Shown here: in pieces, positions 14,509-55,374 of the stretch | Layout of the letters: each line of letters opens with the position of its first letter | Position numbering within the stretch: position 1 is the stretch's first letter | NCBI GenBank assembly: GCA_947626745.1 | Contig: CANQTF010000006.1 | Location: forward strand, 62,001 to 126,000 | DNA: 64,000 nt | Reading direction: 5' to 3' | DNA from: an uncultured Lachnospiraceae bacterium | Lineage (GTDB): Bacteria > Bacillota > Clostridia > Lachnospirales > Lachnospiraceae | Made by a program: the position numbers and the translations under genes | The notes under the pieces: model-generated | The model's database searches: none | What the model was told of the DNA's origin: nothing | Seen by the model: only the letters and a program-made list of their open reading frames with translations

Positions 14509-14691
14509 TAAGCGCTTTTGCCGGTGCTTCGCCGCTATCGTGCTCATGCGCTTATCCGAAAATCGCGAATAAGCGCTTTTGCCGGTGCTTCGCTCCTATC
14601 GCGCTCATGCACTTATCCGAAAATCGCGAATAAGCGCTTTTGCCGGCGCTTCGCCGCCATCGTGCTCATGCGCTTATCCGAAAATCGCGAA
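14509..14691. repeat. Three tandem 61-bp repeats in the trp leader
   Basis: Units at 14509-14569, 14570-14630 and 14631-14691 differ at only a few positions. Each begins TAAGCGCTTTTGCCGG and ends ATCGCGAA; a fourth copy diverges after TAAGCAC at 14692. Each unit holds short inverted parts (GCGCTTTT, CGCGAATAAGCGC across the junction) that could fold. There is no coding signal. The stretch 14692-14811 adds hairpins GAAATGC/GCATTTC and ATCCTTCATGC/GCATGAGGAT. Confidence 0.9.
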
Positions 14692-14811
14692 TAAGCACAT
14701 TCGAAATGCTCCGCATTTCTCATCGCGTTGCTCGCCGCAAGGCTCCCGGCGGAATCCTTCATGCAAGCATGAGGATCACGCCGTCCGCCTTTCGGCTCTG
14801 CTTATTCGCGC

Positions 14812-22807: not shown

Positions 22808-23605
22808 TCAGCTCTCCGTCAGATCCGAGAGCGGTCTGAACGTATATCCCATCTCCTCCCATTTTGTCAAAAGCTCGTCCAAGATCTCCCCGTTGGTCTG
22901 CGACGTGTTGTGCAAAAGCACGATCGCGCCCGGGTGGATCCTTGTCGTCAGTTTGTCGAGCGCCTCTTCCCTGCTCGGCTGATCGTCCTGATCCCAGTCC
23001 ACGTACGCGAGGCTCCAGAAGATCGTGCTGTACCCGAGCTTCTGCGCCGTCCTAAGGTTCTGCTCGCTGCATTTGCCCTGCGGCGGCCTGTAATACATGG
23101 CAAGCTCCGTTCCGGTGACCTCTCTGAAAAGCTCCTCCACATCCTGCATTTCTTCTCGGAACGTCTCCTCGTCCGAGATCGCCGCCATGTCCAGATGATG
23201 ATAGGTATGGTTTCCCACGGCATGTCCCTCCGCAGCCATACGTCTTGCCATGTCCGGCGCCGTCTCCAGAAAATGCCCCACCACAAAGAACGTCGCCTTT
23301 GCGTCATGCTTTTGCAGCGCGTCAAGGATCGGCCCGGTATTGCCGTTCTCGTAACCGCAGTCAAAGGTGAGATAGATGACTTTCCTGTCGGCGTCTCCCA
23401 CATAATACGCATCGTACCACCGAAGCGCCGCCGCCGAGGCGTTTCCCACAGGCTGCGTGCCGGGTTCTCCAAAGGAGAGCCCCCAGTCCTCGGACGTAAA
23501 CGCCAGCGGCCGGCCCTCCGGCGGTTCCGGACTGCGGCCCGTCATCAGTGCGAGCGCCGCCGCGGCTGCCAAAAGCCCTTTTCTCACAATTCCTATCGTA
23601 TCCAT
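22808..23605 (-). CDS. Secreted polysaccharide deacetylase (NodB domain)
   Basis: A 265-residue exported enzyme of carbohydrate esterase family 4, expected to remove N-acetyl groups from peptidoglycan or another GlcNAc polymer. A signal peptide or anchor covers residues 1-25. The NodB motifs are LTFDCGYENGN (catalytic Asp), GNHTYHHLDM (metal histidines) and YRPPQGK. The family resembles PdaA/PdaB of spore formers. A longer frame exists, but GGAGGAGC precedes the ATG at 23605 (MDTIGIVRKG). Its promoter carries the 11-bp direct repeats also found before the amidase at 49780. Confidence 0.93.
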   Translation of the reverse strand: MDTIGIVRKGLLAAAAALALMTGRSPEPPEGRPLAFTSEDWGLSFGEPGTQPVGNASAAALRWYDAYYVGDADRKVIYLTFDCGYENGNTGPILDALQKHDAKATFFVVGHFLETAPDMARRMAAEGHAVGNHTYHHLDMAAISDEETFREEMQDVEELFREVTGTELAMYYRPPQGKCSEQNLRTAQKLGYSTIFWSLAYVDWDQDDQPSREEALDKLTTRIHPGAIVLLHNTSQTNGEILDELLTKWEEMGYTFRPLSDLTES

Positions 23606-23658: not shown

Positions 23659-23713
23659 ATTATAAGATGCGTTTGCATCATAGTTGTATCGGAAATGCAT
23701 CAAAGTTGCATCA
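23659..23713 (-). promoter_or_regulatory. Four 11-bp direct repeats plus -10 box upstream of the deacetylase gene
   Basis: Reading the minus strand from 23713, four 11-base units follow each other: TGATGCAACTT, TGATGCATTTC, CGATACAACTA and TGATGCAAACG. After 5 bp comes a perfect -10 box TATAAT (23659-23664). No good -35 hexamer is present at 17 bp. The layout matches an activator of the OmpR/PhoB/WalR type, which binds 11-bp direct repeats. Confidence 0.75.
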
Positions 23714-50650: not shown

Positions 50651-50727
50651 AGCATACAGGAAAGGTGCATCAGAATTTCATCATTTTTGCATCAAAGTGC
50701 CGTCATTTTTGCATCATTTTTGCATCA
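50651..50727 (-). promoter_or_regulatory. Six 11-bp direct repeats plus -10 box upstream of the amidase gene
   Basis: From 50727 down to 50662 on the minus strand six 11-base units follow without gaps: TGATGCAAAAA twice, TGACGGCACTT, TGATGCAAAAA, TGATGAAATTC and TGATGCACCTT. After 5 bp comes a -10-like TATGCT (50651-50656). There is no -35 hexamer at the right distance. The array begins at the stop codon of the gene upstream. Same arrangement as at 23659-23713. Confidence 0.8.
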
Positions 50728-51549
50728 TTTGGATATTTTCAGGAAAAGCTCGTTGATACCGTCATAAAAGCCGACCGTGACGATCGTCCTGTCCTCCCCG
50801 GTCCCCGAAATGACGTATTTTCTGTAGTAGGGCGTCGTCTCCAGAAGCGGATTGTCGTTCTCGTACGCCTCCGGTGCCGGAAGTCCCATATATGCGCTCC
50901 ACTTTTCGACTAACCCGTCCGGGTCGATATCCTCCCACTGCAGACCGGAGCGTACATAGAACTCATAGATCTTGCCGTCGTCCGCATCGATATAGGCGTC
51001 TATCACCCGATTTTCTTTATTGGCATTCTGTAAACTGCCGGTCAGACTCAGTTTCCAGACCGCCACATTGTTCCTCGGCTCGGGCACATCAATGGCGGAG
51101 TACAGGGTGGCTTCATAGGAAGCAGGCTGCACATCCCTGATCGTATCGGGAAGAATGCCAAGCTCCTTAAGCGCCGCCAGCTCCCTTCCCGCCGCCTCAT
51201 AGATCTCCGCGTCCGTGATCTCCTGTCCGGACGGCCCGTTATGATTGACTACGAATGCATATGTGCCCGTCAGCTCCTGATAGTTTACTTCCGTCTCCCT
51301 CGCCTGAGAGCTCTGCTCCGTACCCGGCACGCTCTGGGAATTCAGGCACTGCGACAGTATATAGAGTTTTTCGCTTCTGCTCAGCTGGTAGCGGTAACCG
51401 ACGCCGCCGGTCTCCTCCTCTTTCGTCCTGATCGCATTCAGGATACCTCTGTCCTTGTATACCGCCACAGTCTCCGGCCCCCATACGGACACTATGACTG
51501 CCACGGCAGTCAATACAAGAAGCGCAAGATTCCACCTATTCTTCTTCAT
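50725..51549 (-). CDS. Membrane-anchored protein of unknown function in the TCS operon
   Basis: A 274-residue protein with one N-terminal membrane helix (about 8-26) and an extracytoplasmic beta-rich domain (AVWKLSLTGSL, VIDAYIDADDGKIYEFYVRS). The DADDGKIY motif resembles PepSY-like or regulatory accessory domains, but I do not assign a family. Its start overlaps the end of the sensor kinase gene by 14 bases, suggesting coupled translation and a role with the kinase, perhaps as accessory sensor; inference. Confidence 0.75.
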   Translation of the reverse strand: MKKNRWNLALLVLTAVAVIVSVWGPETVAVYKDRGILNAIRTKEEETGGVGYRYQLSRSEKLYILSQCLNSQSVPGTEQSSQARETEVNYQELTGTYAFVVNHNGPSGQEITDAEIYEAAGRELAALKELGILPDTIRDVQPASYEATLYSAIDVPEPRNNVAVWKLSLTGSLQNANKENRVIDAYIDADDGKIYEFYVRSGLQWEDIDPDGLVEKWSAYMGLPAPEAYENDNPLLETTPYYRKYVISGTGEDRTIVTVGFYDGINELFLKISK

Positions 51550-52960
51550 GAGCCGCCTCCTCTCCCGCCTCCGCCAAAAGGAAGCTGACAGATGTACCCT
51601 CTCCGGGTGTGCTCACAATGGCAAGGCTGCTCGCATGAAGACGCAGTATCTCCGTGCAGAGCGCGAGTCCGAGCCCGGCACCGTTGCGGCTCCGCGATCT
51701 GGATTTGTCTACCATATAGAACGCCTGTGTGATCTTGGAGACTTCCTCGGCCGGAATGCCGATACCGTGATCCCTGACGGTAAAAAGATAGCCGTCCTGC
51801 CCCGAACGGCCCGTGACTTCGATCCTGCCCCCGTCCTCCGACGCCTTGCACGCATTATCCATGAGATTCACCAGCACGGTCTGGATCAGGCTGATGTCCG
51901 CCAGCACATATGCCTGATCATAGTCGAAAGCAAACTCCCTGCTTTCGTTCGGCAGAAACATGTCCCGCAGATAGGTAAACAGGACATCCACCGGCGCTTT
52001 CTGCAGCTTTGCGCCCTCTTTTTTGGTCACAATGATATCCAGAAGTCTGAGCGACATCGTCTCCAACCGCTTGCCCTCGGTATAGATATAGTTTGCGGAG
52101 AGAAGACTTTTCTCCTCATCCAGCTTTCTGGAGCGCAGCATATCGGCGTAGCCGATGATCGAAGTCAAGGGCGTCTTCAGTTCATGGGCGAAAGCGCCCA
52201 CAAAGTCTTCCCGCGCCTGCACTTCGTCTTCCAGCTGTCCGATCGTCTTCTCAAGCGCCTCGGACATGCTGTTAAAATCCTGCGTCAAAAGCCCCAGCTC
52301 ATCGCTGCTGACCTGTTCGGCGCGGTATCCGTAATCTCCGGCGGCCATCTTTTTCGTGGCCCGCATCAGGAGCCTGATCGGCTTCGTCAACTTGGAAGAA
52401 ATAAAATACATGATCACGATCCCAAGGATCAGCATCAATATCATCAGCCGGCGATAGACGAGAAAACCCGTCTGCCGTTCCTCAAATACTTGGGACACGT
52501 CCCGCAGCGTCTCCAGAAACAGCCCGCGTCCCAATGCGCTGACACCGCTTGCCGTCTGGATATAGTACTTGCCGCCGGACTCGATGACACGGTATGCGTA
52601 CCGATCCGTCTCCGTGGCATCCAGAAGCGCGCCGTCCGCCTCAAAACCGTCGCTGGCATAGACGGTCTGCCTCTGCTCGTCACAGATGCGCAGAAGTCTG
52701 CCGTCTCCCTGCCCGCTCGTCTCCAGATTGGAGGCGATCTGCTCCACGGAACCGTTCTGCAGCATATCGTATTTCACCGGCACATTCAGCGCCGCAGTCT
52801 CAAAGGCAAACCGCAGGATACTGTTTTCGTCCAGCGCCTGATCCACTTCCCGGTCCAGAGAAGTCTCAAACACATAGTTGACAAAATAGTAGCCGCTGAA
52901 GCCGAGCGTGAGGGCTATGATGATCGTAGTCCACAGCAAAAGTTTCTGCGAAAATTTCAT
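51536..52960 (-). CDS. Sensor histidine kinase of the cell-envelope TCS
   Basis: A 474-residue kinase. Membrane helices at about 7-27 and 165-187 flank an extracytoplasmic sensor of ~135 residues. HAMP follows, then HisKA with FVGAFAHELKTPLTSIIGY (phospho-His) and an ATPase domain with DNACKA, DHGIGIP and GAGLGLAL. It lies 16 bases after its response regulator gene and overlaps the anchored protein gene downstream. The signal is unknown; operon partners point to the cell wall. Confidence 0.94.
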   Translation of the reverse strand: MKFSQKLLLWTTIIIALTLGFSGYYFVNYVFETSLDREVDQALDENSILRFAFETAALNVPVKYDMLQNGSVEQIASNLETSGQGDGRLLRICDEQRQTVYASDGFEADGALLDATETDRYAYRVIESGGKYYIQTASGVSALGRGLFLETLRDVSQVFEERQTGFLVYRRLMILMLILGIVIMYFISSKLTKPIRLLMRATKKMAAGDYGYRAEQVSSDELGLLTQDFNSMSEALEKTIGQLEDEVQAREDFVGAFAHELKTPLTSIIGYADMLRSRKLDEEKSLLSANYIYTEGKRLETMSLRLLDIIVTKKEGAKLQKAPVDVLFTYLRDMFLPNESREFAFDYDQAYVLADISLIQTVLVNLMDNACKASEDGGRIEVTGRSGQDGYLFTVRDHGIGIPAEEVSKITQAFYMVDKSRSRSRNGAGLGLALCTEILRLHASSLAIVSTPGEGTSVSFLLAEAGEEAAHEEE

Positions 52961-52976
52961 GATACACCCATACTCC

Positions 52977-53630
52977 CTAGATCTCTAATCTGTATCCCAC
53001 TTTATATACGGCGACAAGATTTTTCTCCCAGCCCAGCTTGCGCCTCAGTCTTTGCACATGAAGATCCAGCGTCCTGCTGTTGGCATAGTACTCATCGTCC
53101 CAGACTTTCTCGTACAGGTTCTCCCTAAACAGCGCCACGTTCCTGTTTTCCGCAAAGAGAACGAGAAGCTCAAACTCCTTGCTGGTGAGCGGCACAGGCT
53201 TGCCGGCCCGCATCACCCGCCTTGCTTCCAGGTCGATCTCGACCTCGCCGACGACCAGCTTCCTGTCTGCCTTGTTGTATCTGCGCAGCACCGCCTCTAC
53301 TCTGGCCAACAGCTCCGACACGTCAAAGGGCTTGATCAGATAGTCGTCAGCCCCCAGCCTCAGCCCCTTGACCCTGTCCTTCACCTCATGCTTGGCCGAG
53401 ATAAAGATAACGGGCACCTTAAGCGGCGCGATGTATTCCATCACGTCATATCCGTCCGCTCCCGGCAGCATGATATCCAGAAGGACAAGGTCAAACGTAT
53501 CCTTCTCCACCGCCTCGATCGCCGCAAGTCCGTCCTCCGCCGCCACACACGAATAGCCTGATGCCGACAGATTCATTTCTATCAGATCGCGGATCGGTTT
53601 TTCATCATCTACAATCAGTATCTTCGTCAT
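52977..53630 (-). CDS. OmpR/PhoB-family response regulator
   Basis: A 217-residue regulator. Receiver domain (1-118) with ILIVDDEKPI, phospho-Asp in LVLLDIMLPGADG, Thr/Ser in FISAKH and Lys in LIKPFD. The C-terminal winged helix (about 125-217) has PLTSKEFELLVLF, the recognition segment SRTLDLHVQRLRRKLG and the wing VYKVGYRLE. The ATG at 53630 overlaps the upstream stop as ATGA. Regulators of this class bind 11-bp direct repeats, and such repeats precede the amidase gene of this operon. Confidence 0.95.
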   Translation of the reverse strand: MTKILIVDDEKPIRDLIEMNLSASGYSCVAAEDGLAAIEAVEKDTFDLVLLDIMLPGADGYDVMEYIAPLKVPVIFISAKHEVKDRVKGLRLGADDYLIKPFDVSELLARVEAVLRRYNKADRKLVVGEVEIDLEARRVMRAGKPVPLTSKEFELLVLFAENRNVALFRENLYEKVWDDEYYANSRTLDLHVQRLRRKLGWEKNLVAVYKVGYRLEI

Positions 53631-54748
53631 GTCTCCGGACTCCAACCCCAATAGGCTCTCGCCTTCTCCACAAGTTCCGCCACCGTATCCTTCTCCTCAC
53701 AGGCGACCTTGCGCCGCACCTCCGTATCCGCTTCAAAACCGCCGGTCCGCTGGTAATATATCCTGTAGTCGCTCTTCGTGAGGAGCTCGTTCTCGCTGCC
53801 CGCGTAGCTGTATCGGGCAAGCACCAAAATGTCCTTCATGCCGTCCCCGTCAATGTCCCTGCACTGGATCCCTTTCAGCGCGTACAGATTGTCGAAATCC
53901 CCCATCGGCTGAAAACTCCAGACGATATCTCCCTGTTCATTCACCAGATAGATCATGAACGTGGCATATTCCGCCATCGTATATGTGCCCGGCATCACTT
54001 CCAGATACCCCAGCTTCTCAAACTGTCTGGAATAATCCTGCTCTTCTTCAACGACAAACCCTTTCCTGAGAAGCTCTTCCTTGGTGGAAGCCGTGTAGAG
54101 GAACTCCGTGGACCGGCCGTCCCGCACATAGGTTATGATACACTCTGCGCTCTTGTTCATCCCGAATCTGTTGATCTTGTCCGAGATCCGATAGTCCCGA
54201 TAGAACCCCTCTTTACTCTGGAAGAGCACATCTCCTACCTTGTAACTCTTTCCCGCATACGGGCCGCTCCTGTTGCGGCAGTCCGTGATCAGCACGATAT
54301 CCGTCCAGCCGTCCCGATCCAGATCCTGAAAAGCGACCGCGGAGAGTCCGGTGATCGGCTGTTCCATACTGCCGACGTTCCAGCTGTTGGCGGCAAGCTG
54401 CTCCGTGCGCCAGGCCACGCTCCCATCCTCCCGCACCAGAAACAGGGCAAGCCTGTGGTATGTCTCCTCCATGGCGGGAACGAGACGCACACTCCCAAAG
54501 CGCTCCGTCTCTATCGGAAAGACCTGCCCGCCGATAATTGTGAATCCGTTCTCTTCGATCCCGCTCTCTGTCACTATGCCCTGCAGACGCTCCTGATAGT
54601 CCGCATACTCCGCAAGCATCTGACGGTCCGCCGGAGCTGCCGGCTCCGCAGCCCTCGCGGGTACGCCGCAGAAGACGCACAACAGCGCCGCGATCACGCC
54701 AAACGCTATGAATTTATCCCATGATTTCTTCTGATGCACTCTGCTCAT
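53627..54748 (-). CDS. Secreted VCBS/FG-GAP-like protein, first gene of the TCS operon
   Basis: A 373-residue exported protein. A signal peptide ends near AARA-AEP (residues ~31-34). Two segments resemble calcium-binding VCBS/FG-GAP repeats: FQDLDRDGWTDIVLITD and CRDIDGDGMKDILVLARY. Such repeats fold into beta-propeller blades. It may be an external sensor or a wall-associated partner of the kinase. The stop overlaps the response regulator start by four bases. Confidence 0.8.
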   Translation of the reverse strand: MSRVHQKKSWDKFIAFGVIAALLCVFCGVPARAAEPAAPADRQMLAEYADYQERLQGIVTESGIEENGFTIIGGQVFPIETERFGSVRLVPAMEETYHRLALFLVREDGSVAWRTEQLAANSWNVGSMEQPITGLSAVAFQDLDRDGWTDIVLITDCRNRSGPYAGKSYKVGDVLFQSKEGFYRDYRISDKINRFGMNKSAECIITYVRDGRSTEFLYTASTKEELLRKGFVVEEEQDYSRQFEKLGYLEVMPGTYTMAEYATFMIYLVNEQGDIVWSFQPMGDFDNLYALKGIQCRDIDGDGMKDILVLARYSYAGSENELLTKSDYRIYYQRTGGFEADTEVRRKVACEEKDTVAELVEKARAYWGWSPET

Positions 54749-54801: not shown

Positions 54802-55374
54802 CTAACCCTGCATTCGCTGCAGTATTTCACTCTGCTTGGAAACAACATTTTTCAGGACTACGATATCGGCAGCCATATTATCTATCTGCTCCGTCCGCTC
54901 CAAATATCTTTTGGAAGAATCCAGATAACAGGCTTCGATCGTGTTCAGTCTCGGTATCACGCTATTCTCAAGCTGTACGACCCTGACATATCGCATATCC
55001 TTTTCCAGCTTGCCTACTCTCCCCTGCAGACTGTCCATGCCATCTTCGAGCCGGCCTACCCGTTCATCCAGTTTTCCTACTCTCTCATCTAACTTTTTTA
55101 CTCTCTCATCTATCTTTTCTACTCTCTCATCTAACCTTTCTACTCTCTCATCTAATCTTTCTACTCTCTCATCTAATCTTTCTACCCGTTCATCCAGCCT
55201 GTCCAGTCGATCATAGATCGGGTGCAGCTTCTCATCAAACTTCCGATCCAATTTCTCATCCAATTTTTGATCCAGCTGCCGATCCAGTGTCTCACCCAAC
55301 TTTTGATCCAGCTTCTGATCCAGTTTCTCATCCAACAGATCCGATATTGCCGAAAGCATTTCTCTGTCTACCAT
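54802..55374 (-). CDS. Coiled-coil protein with heptad DNA repeats
   Basis: A 190-residue, highly charged protein. Residues ~15-55 repeat DQKLDEKL-like units, and ~57-115 consist of the heptad LDERVER repeated about nine times, a textbook parallel coiled coil. A different C-terminal part (~120-190) ends in further helix. There is no membrane segment or signal. AGGAGG precedes ATG 55374 (MVDREML), preferred over a longer frame. Function unknown; possibly a scaffold or filament. Confidence 0.82.
   Translation of the reverse strand: MVDREMLSAISDLLDEKLDQKLDQKLGETLDRQLDQKLDEKLDRKFDEKLHPIYDRLDRLDERVERLDERVERLDERVERLDERVEKIDERVKKLDERVGKLDERVGRLEDGMDSLQGRVGKLEKDMRYVRVVQLENSVIPRLNTIEACYLDSSKRYLERTEQIDNMAADIVVLKNVVSKQSEILQRMQG
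55050..55202. repeat. 21-bp tandem repeats encoding a heptad coiled coil
   Basis: The plus strand shows about seven near-identical 21-bp units of the type TCTACTCTCTCATCTAA within the coiled-coil gene. The near-identity at DNA level, not only protein level, suggests recent duplication or slippage. Confidence 0.85.

Follow-up and report, generated by a model that had tools for sequence, protein, structure and literature searches.

A promoter code made of tandem TGATGCA-N4 units, a 5-bp gap and a -10 element assigns to a single envelope regulon dozens of exported proteins from gut Lachnospiraceae, mostly uncultured bacteria; many of these proteins have no known family, and the recurrent output of the regulon is an amidase-deacetylase pair, often fused. 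The regulon is coherent, its promoter grammar is strict, and it is a new regulon of the known OmpR/PhoB kind. The same repeat stands at a constant distance upstream of genes for exported proteins, those of wall remodelling among them, and this suggests common control by one neighbouring sensor-regulator pair. Judging from sequence comparisons, we consider it highly probable that this is an activator regulon run by the response regulator P0005 and the histidine kinase P0004, with the repeats as predicted P0005 binding sites.

Two phased repeat arrays precede wall-enzyme genes

The window (the whole 64-kb stretch of DNA analysed here, from an uncultured Lachnospiraceae bacterium) contains two such arrays, 27 kb apart (Table 1). 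The array of the deacetylase gene P0001 reads, on the minus strand from 23713 to 23659, TGATGCAACTT, TGATGCATTTC, CGATACAACTA, TGATGCAAACG, CATCT and TATAAT, with an exact TGATGCA in three of its four cores and CGATACA (5/7 matches) in the third. That of the amidase gene P0002 runs from 50727 to 50651 as TGATGCAAAAA, TGATGCAAAAA, TGACGGCACTT, TGATGCAAAAA, TGATGAAATTC, TGATGCACCTT, TCCTG and TATGCT; four of its six cores are exact, and its first TGA doubles as the stop codon of P0003.

The first-pass annotation had described four 11-bp units before the deacetylase gene, the last one 5 bp from TATAAT, and this was confirmed, with the qualification that the third core is degenerate. It had also placed the same build before both genes: the 5-bp spacing does hold at both, but the amidase array is longer, with six units instead of four. 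Its expectation that the same phase and spacing would hardly arise twice by chance was borne out. The best four-unit scores in the window were 26/28 (deacetylase, in phase with TAnnnT) and 25/28 (amidase, whose four promoter-proximal units score 24/28 in phase), and neither was reached in 100 dinucleotide-preserving shuffles of the 64 kb (maximum 21, or 19 when TAnnnT was required at +5). A chance origin was rejected on this comparison. TGATGCA itself occurs 24 times in the window versus 12.6 expected, with seven occurrences inside the two arrays, and a whole-window scan returned these two arrays only, with none upstream of P0005. Elsewhere, the window carries a 61-bp tandem repeat (14509-14696; 3.1 copies, 92% matches) and a run of short tandem repeats of 12 to 63 bp with several overlapping periods (55056-55336).

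Table 1 Features of the two array promoters and of the associated genes in the window
Feature	Position	Strand	Evidence
P0001, exported PdaA-like polysaccharide deacetylase, 265 aa, motif TFDCGYENG	22808..23605	-	Pfam Polysacc_deac_1
Deacetylase promoter -10, TATAAT	23659..23664	-	sequence; found in phase
5-bp linker between deacetylase array and -10	23665-23669	-	
Four 11-bp units (TGATGCA, TGATGCA, CGATACA, TGATGCA), TGATGCA-N4 build	23670..23713	-	sequence, motif search, shuffles
P0002, membrane-anchored N-acetylmuramoyl-L-alanine amidase, 279 aa	49780..50619	-	Pfam Amidase_3
Amidase promoter -10, TATGCT	50651..50656	-	sequence; phased motif search
5-bp linker between amidase array and -10	50657-50661	-	
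Six 11-bp units before amidase gene	50662..50727	-	sequence, shuffles
P0003, N-terminal membrane helix, possible kinase accessory	50725..51549	-	no Pfam family over cut-off
P0004, sensor histidine kinase (HAMP, HisKA, HATPase)	51536..52960	-	domain models; homolog upstream in 78/80 named loci
P0005, OmpR/PhoB-type response regulator, proposed repeat binder	52977..53651	-	domain models; homolog upstream in 77/80 named loci

On the minus strand, the amidase gene closes the series P0005, P0004, P0003, P0002. P0005 has the receiver and Trans_reg_C domains of an OmpR/PhoB-type regulator. For P0003, family matches of 54 homologs included weak PepSY hits in 43 (best E 0.0011) and did not include the YycH/YycI families; a profile search against sequences of solved structures gave at best E 0.55, and the predicted structure had a mean pLDDT of 74.6. 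Downstream of the amidase gene lies a LytTR-domain regulator gene (P0006, 48936-49658, minus strand), with homologs in L112, L116 and L115.

Against the spore CwlD model TIGR02883, P0002 scored 136 bits (cut-off 221.55). P0001 narrowly missed the spore PdaA family TIGR02884 (281.2 bits, cut-off 298), matched Bacillus subtilis PdaA (1w17) with 208.6 bits and was the best PdaA-like match in the source genome (281 bits, runner-up 156). PdaA-like proteins of at least 268 bits were found in 9/25 genomes of the genus, and all nine orthologs read TFDCGYENG, which aligns to TFDNGYENG of B. subtilis PdaA and so retains the aspartate and GYENG of PdaA-type motif 1. A four-unit array with TAnnnT at +5 precedes seven of the nine orthologous deacetylase genes; in the other two (L147 and L155), no four-unit phased array was seen within the available flank. 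The phased arrays, together with this conservation, support the earlier proposal of a shared regulon with fixed phasing. Upstream of the deacetylase lies P0008 (23746-24384, minus strand), which gave no Pfam match and has homologs both in PdaA-ortholog loci (L109, L099, L114) and in loci of sulfatase-domain targets (L058, L063).

Arrays in the source genome and its relatives

The scan of the genome and its relatives that the first-pass annotation had proposed extended the motif well beyond the window. Searching the source genome for pairs of units, allowing at most one mismatch, yielded 13 matches (0 with the reversed-pattern control). Of these, 12 make up five arrays, located in the window (two) and on contigs C8, C12 and C30 (one each), and the remaining one is an isolated pair on C10 (G000:C10:6044, L017). 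All five arrays have exactly 5 bp between the last unit and TAnnnT (control 0). The targets on C8, C12 and C30 (L014, L015 and L016) have signal- or lipoprotein-like starts and no Pfam match. As the source genome is 83.5% complete, further targets may be missing.

Of 25 genomes of the genus, the source genome among them, 22 contained the exact two-unit motif, compared with none of 16 genomes from other families of the order, and no reversed-control match occurred in any of the 41; the motif was not found in G100, a further same-genus genome from the family sample. That sample yielded 21 sites in 17 of 298 other genomes versus five control sites, so about a quarter may be chance. When three units with at most one mismatch were sought in a class sample, 3/391 genomes were returned, namely the source genome and G538 and G420, which belong to other families of the class. 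In G538, arrays built in this way (L269, L270) stand before the gene of a membrane-anchored protein and that of a lipoprotein-like one; the L270 array is followed by 5 bp and TATACT, and the L269 array has no phased TAnnnT.

Phase was assessed in a genus set of 73 arrays, taken from 63 regions around every listed motif place plus the own genome. TAnnnT lay at exactly +5 in 58 of them by the plain rule (the next offset reached 10), and 64 were in phase once over-extended ends had been trimmed. The nine out-of-phase arrays include those of MBOAT and sigma-factor genes, and others precede what we take from their sequences to be thioredoxin and ABC permease genes. Of the 21 arrays from other genera, 10 were in phase. 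The 64 in-phase arrays had two (9), four (28), five (3), six (14), seven (1) or eight (9) units, an even number in 60.

The array accompanies a wall enzyme, often a fused one

A contig profile scan with the P0003 alignment found 273 loci, mostly titled Lachnospiraceae among the best 80 (L183-L262), which were used here and therefore lean towards close relatives. Within these best 80 of 273, an array of at least four units follows P0003 in 69 loci (67/69 in phase), the full array is missing in 11, and in 58 of the 80 the array starts on the P0003 stop codon; the arrays at L239 and L242 comprise eight units before the -10. After leaving out 8/80 loci with less than 1500 bp of flank, 63 of the remaining 72 had an array, and a wall-enzyme gene came next in 63/63 of these versus 0/9 of those without (Fisher 1.2e-11). 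The array therefore travels with the wall enzyme and not with P0003. The next gene in the 63 array loci encoded an amidase (21), an amidase plus deacetylase (39) or a deacetylase alone (3). Sets selected by motif and by P0003 share some genomes and are thus not fully independent.

In 39/80 loci the amidase is fused to a polysaccharide deacetylase in one membrane-anchored reading frame (for example L103:2058-3482:-), stronger evidence for an amidase-deacetylase pairing than the first-pass annotation had offered in proposing it. Deacetylase domains next to P0003 read TFDDG (45 readings), unlike the TFDCGYENG of the P0001 group, and the one such domain tested, that of L103, had as its closest chain 5jmu, named peptidoglycan N-acetylglucosamine deacetylase. 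These are thus two different deacetylases, and the fusion need not make lactam.

Promoter type and targets

The direct repeats of about 11 bp with a conserved core, lying just before a -10, have the layout of an OmpR/PhoB-type regulon. The -10 elements of array promoters (TATGCT, TATAAT, TAATCT and similar) look sigma-A-like; sporulation sigma factors use other -10 elements. A conserved -35 was not found, matches to TTGACA averaging 1.0-2.3 of 6 positions at spacers of 16-18. Among 20 chosen targets, Pfam identified sulfatase-domain, VIT/VWA, DUF5050/DUF3298 and GH25 proteins, and several had no family; the sulfatase-domain target is presumably of the LTA-synthase kind. By a plain hydrophobicity rule, applied to rough gene starts and background frames, 57/63 targets had a hydrophobic N-terminus versus 130/305 background frames, and the six misses include P0001.

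Link between the motif and P0005

Across the 41 genus and order genomes, motif and P0003 operon occurred together in 20, the motif alone in two and neither in 19, an agreement of 39/41 (Fisher 9.4e-10). The two motif-only genomes are G005, with one off-phase pair, and G008, which is 67% complete. In the family sample, P0003 was found at E <1e-80 in 11/299 genomes (own included), directly followed by an array in nine and without one in two (L177, L178); matches weaker than about E 1e-4 (G156, G184, G215) were excluded from the carriers. At the same E <1e-80, P0003 is missing from 11 of the 17 other motif-bearing genomes of this sample, where some motif sites are chance.

In the motif carriers checked outside the genus (G538, G420, G184, G055), the regulator is 53-58% identical to P0005 (54-58% in G538 and G420), and in the same-genus genomes G005, G015 and G019 the best regulator reaches only 40-50%. 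The recognition-helix stretch SRTLDLHVQRLRRKLGW is conserved in 97 regulator copies sharing 65% identity or more, a count that includes repeats from the same genome, and is largely kept in the distant carriers. Units also stand before the regulator gene itself in G538 (13/14 matches, in phase), G184 (14/14, 4-bp linker) and G055; no clear units were seen upstream of the regulator genes of G420, G304, G053 (operon copy) and G086.

Proposed mechanism and alternative explanations

This two-component system is the likely controller. P0004 would phosphorylate P0005, with P0003 as a probable accessory, and P0005 dimers would line up head to tail along arrays, most of which have four, six or eight units. 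With the last unit at the -35 position, the regulator would bring RNA polymerase carrying the main sigma factor to promoters that possess a -10 and lack a conserved -35. In the source genome, the proteins co-activated by P0005 in this way would be the amidase, the PdaA-like deacetylase and three or more further exported proteins. Envelope stress as the signal is a guess.

That a different OmpR-type regulator binds the repeats, the P0005 operon merely holding one target, is unlikely in our judgement. Regulators abound in the source genome, where the YycF model matched at least 52 scored candidates, the P0005 gene has no array of its own upstream, and some genomes carry the motif without P0003; against this, the order regulator, kinase, P0003, array is kept in most of the 80 loci, the motif goes together with the regulators most similar to P0005 in the genomes that were compared, and units precede the regulator gene itself in several relatives whose helix is similar. 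We think it quite improbable that the arrays are instead operators through which P0005 represses its targets. Array position alone leaves the direction of control unproven, and WalR-type regulators can either activate or repress (PMC9210968), but the lack of a conserved -35 and the single fixed distance from last unit to -10 fit an activator that touches the polymerase.

Sporulation-linked control, which the first-pass annotation had entertained, would make P0002 and P0001 the spore CwlD/PdaA pair that forms cortex muramic delta-lactam. SpoIVA is over its cut-off in 22/25 genus genomes including the source, P0001 is the genome's best PdaA-like protein, and the best NCBIfam names of both proteins are spore enzymes. 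Yet both fall below those family cut-offs, a closer CwlD match exists elsewhere in the source genome (213.5 bits, also below 221.55, versus 133.8 for P0002), CwlD matches of at least 194 bits occur in 24/25 genus genomes, PdaA-like proteins of at least 268 bits occur in just nine of the 25, and the -10s are TATAAT- or TATGCT-like. On these grounds, and given the motif before many other exported proteins, we rejected a sporulation regulon and consider this reading very improbable. The distributions of SpoIVA and PdaA-like proteins also indicate that several species of the genus may sporulate without a recognisable PdaA. It is barely credible that the repeats have no regulatory role, for instance as chance or mobile repeats: single pairs do reach chance rates in distant genomes by the reversed control, but the shuffles, the phase at +5, the wall-enzyme co-occurrence and the arrays at 69/80 P0003 loci all argue otherwise.

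A tentative extension of this model, which we hold to be possible though doubtful, is vegetative wall editing, in which the two-component system would drive an amidase that removes peptides and a deacetylase that works on the sugars as soon as they are exposed; outside spores this would yield deacetylated denuded strands or muramic delta-lactam. The latter is described as unique to spores in the SwsB paper (PMC12444981). In many gut Lachnospiraceae, a single fused, membrane-anchored protein would carry out both of these steps. Were the pair to produce lactam or deacetylated strands during growth, this could bear on lysozyme resistance and host sensing. The promoter code makes the regulator, the signal and the wall chemistry directly testable. 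No description of the regulon was found among the matches listed from open-licence PubMed Central papers, and it may be published elsewhere.

Comparison with known systems

The closest likeness in architecture is to the PHO box of PhoB/PhoP, whose unit is an 11-bp direct repeat with seven conserved and four loose bases that is bound head to tail (PMC4415409); the units here have the same 11-bp make-up of seven conserved and four loose bases. P0005 likewise scores best against the PhoB model, but at 194.6 bits it stays below the cut-off of 296.2, and membership of the PhoB phosphate regulon was rejected. The core also differs (TGATGCA here versus CTGTCAT in E. coli), and, unlike in the PhoB regulon, no observed target carries a phosphate-related name, all of them being envelope proteins.

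In its outputs the regulon resembles WalRK (YycFG), a two-component system with a membrane accessory: the C. difficile study lists the deacetylase pgdA, the amidases cwp16 and cwp17 and many exported proteins under WalRK control (PMC9210968). However, P0005 scored 180.5 bits on the YycF model, where two other regulators of the source genome scored 258.3 and 252.5; the cut-off of 340 was reached by no genus genome. Neither array has a full match to the WalR consensus of that study (TGTWAH-N5-TGTWAH), the highest counts being 9 and 10 of 12, and WalRK membership was rejected.

The link between amidase and deacetylase recalls SddA of E. coli, described as a deacetylase acting on strands stripped of peptides by amidases (PMC12440217), a likeness in functional description. 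SddA is there a separate protein co-expressed with EnvC, whereas here the two activities share a promoter type or one chain. The spore pair CwlD/PdaA comprises the same two enzyme classes, and P0001 keeps the PdaA aspartate, called catalytic in the SwsB paper (PMC12444981), as well as GYENG; the present pair differs in scoring below both family cut-offs, in its promoter type and in the TFDDG motif of its fused deacetylases.
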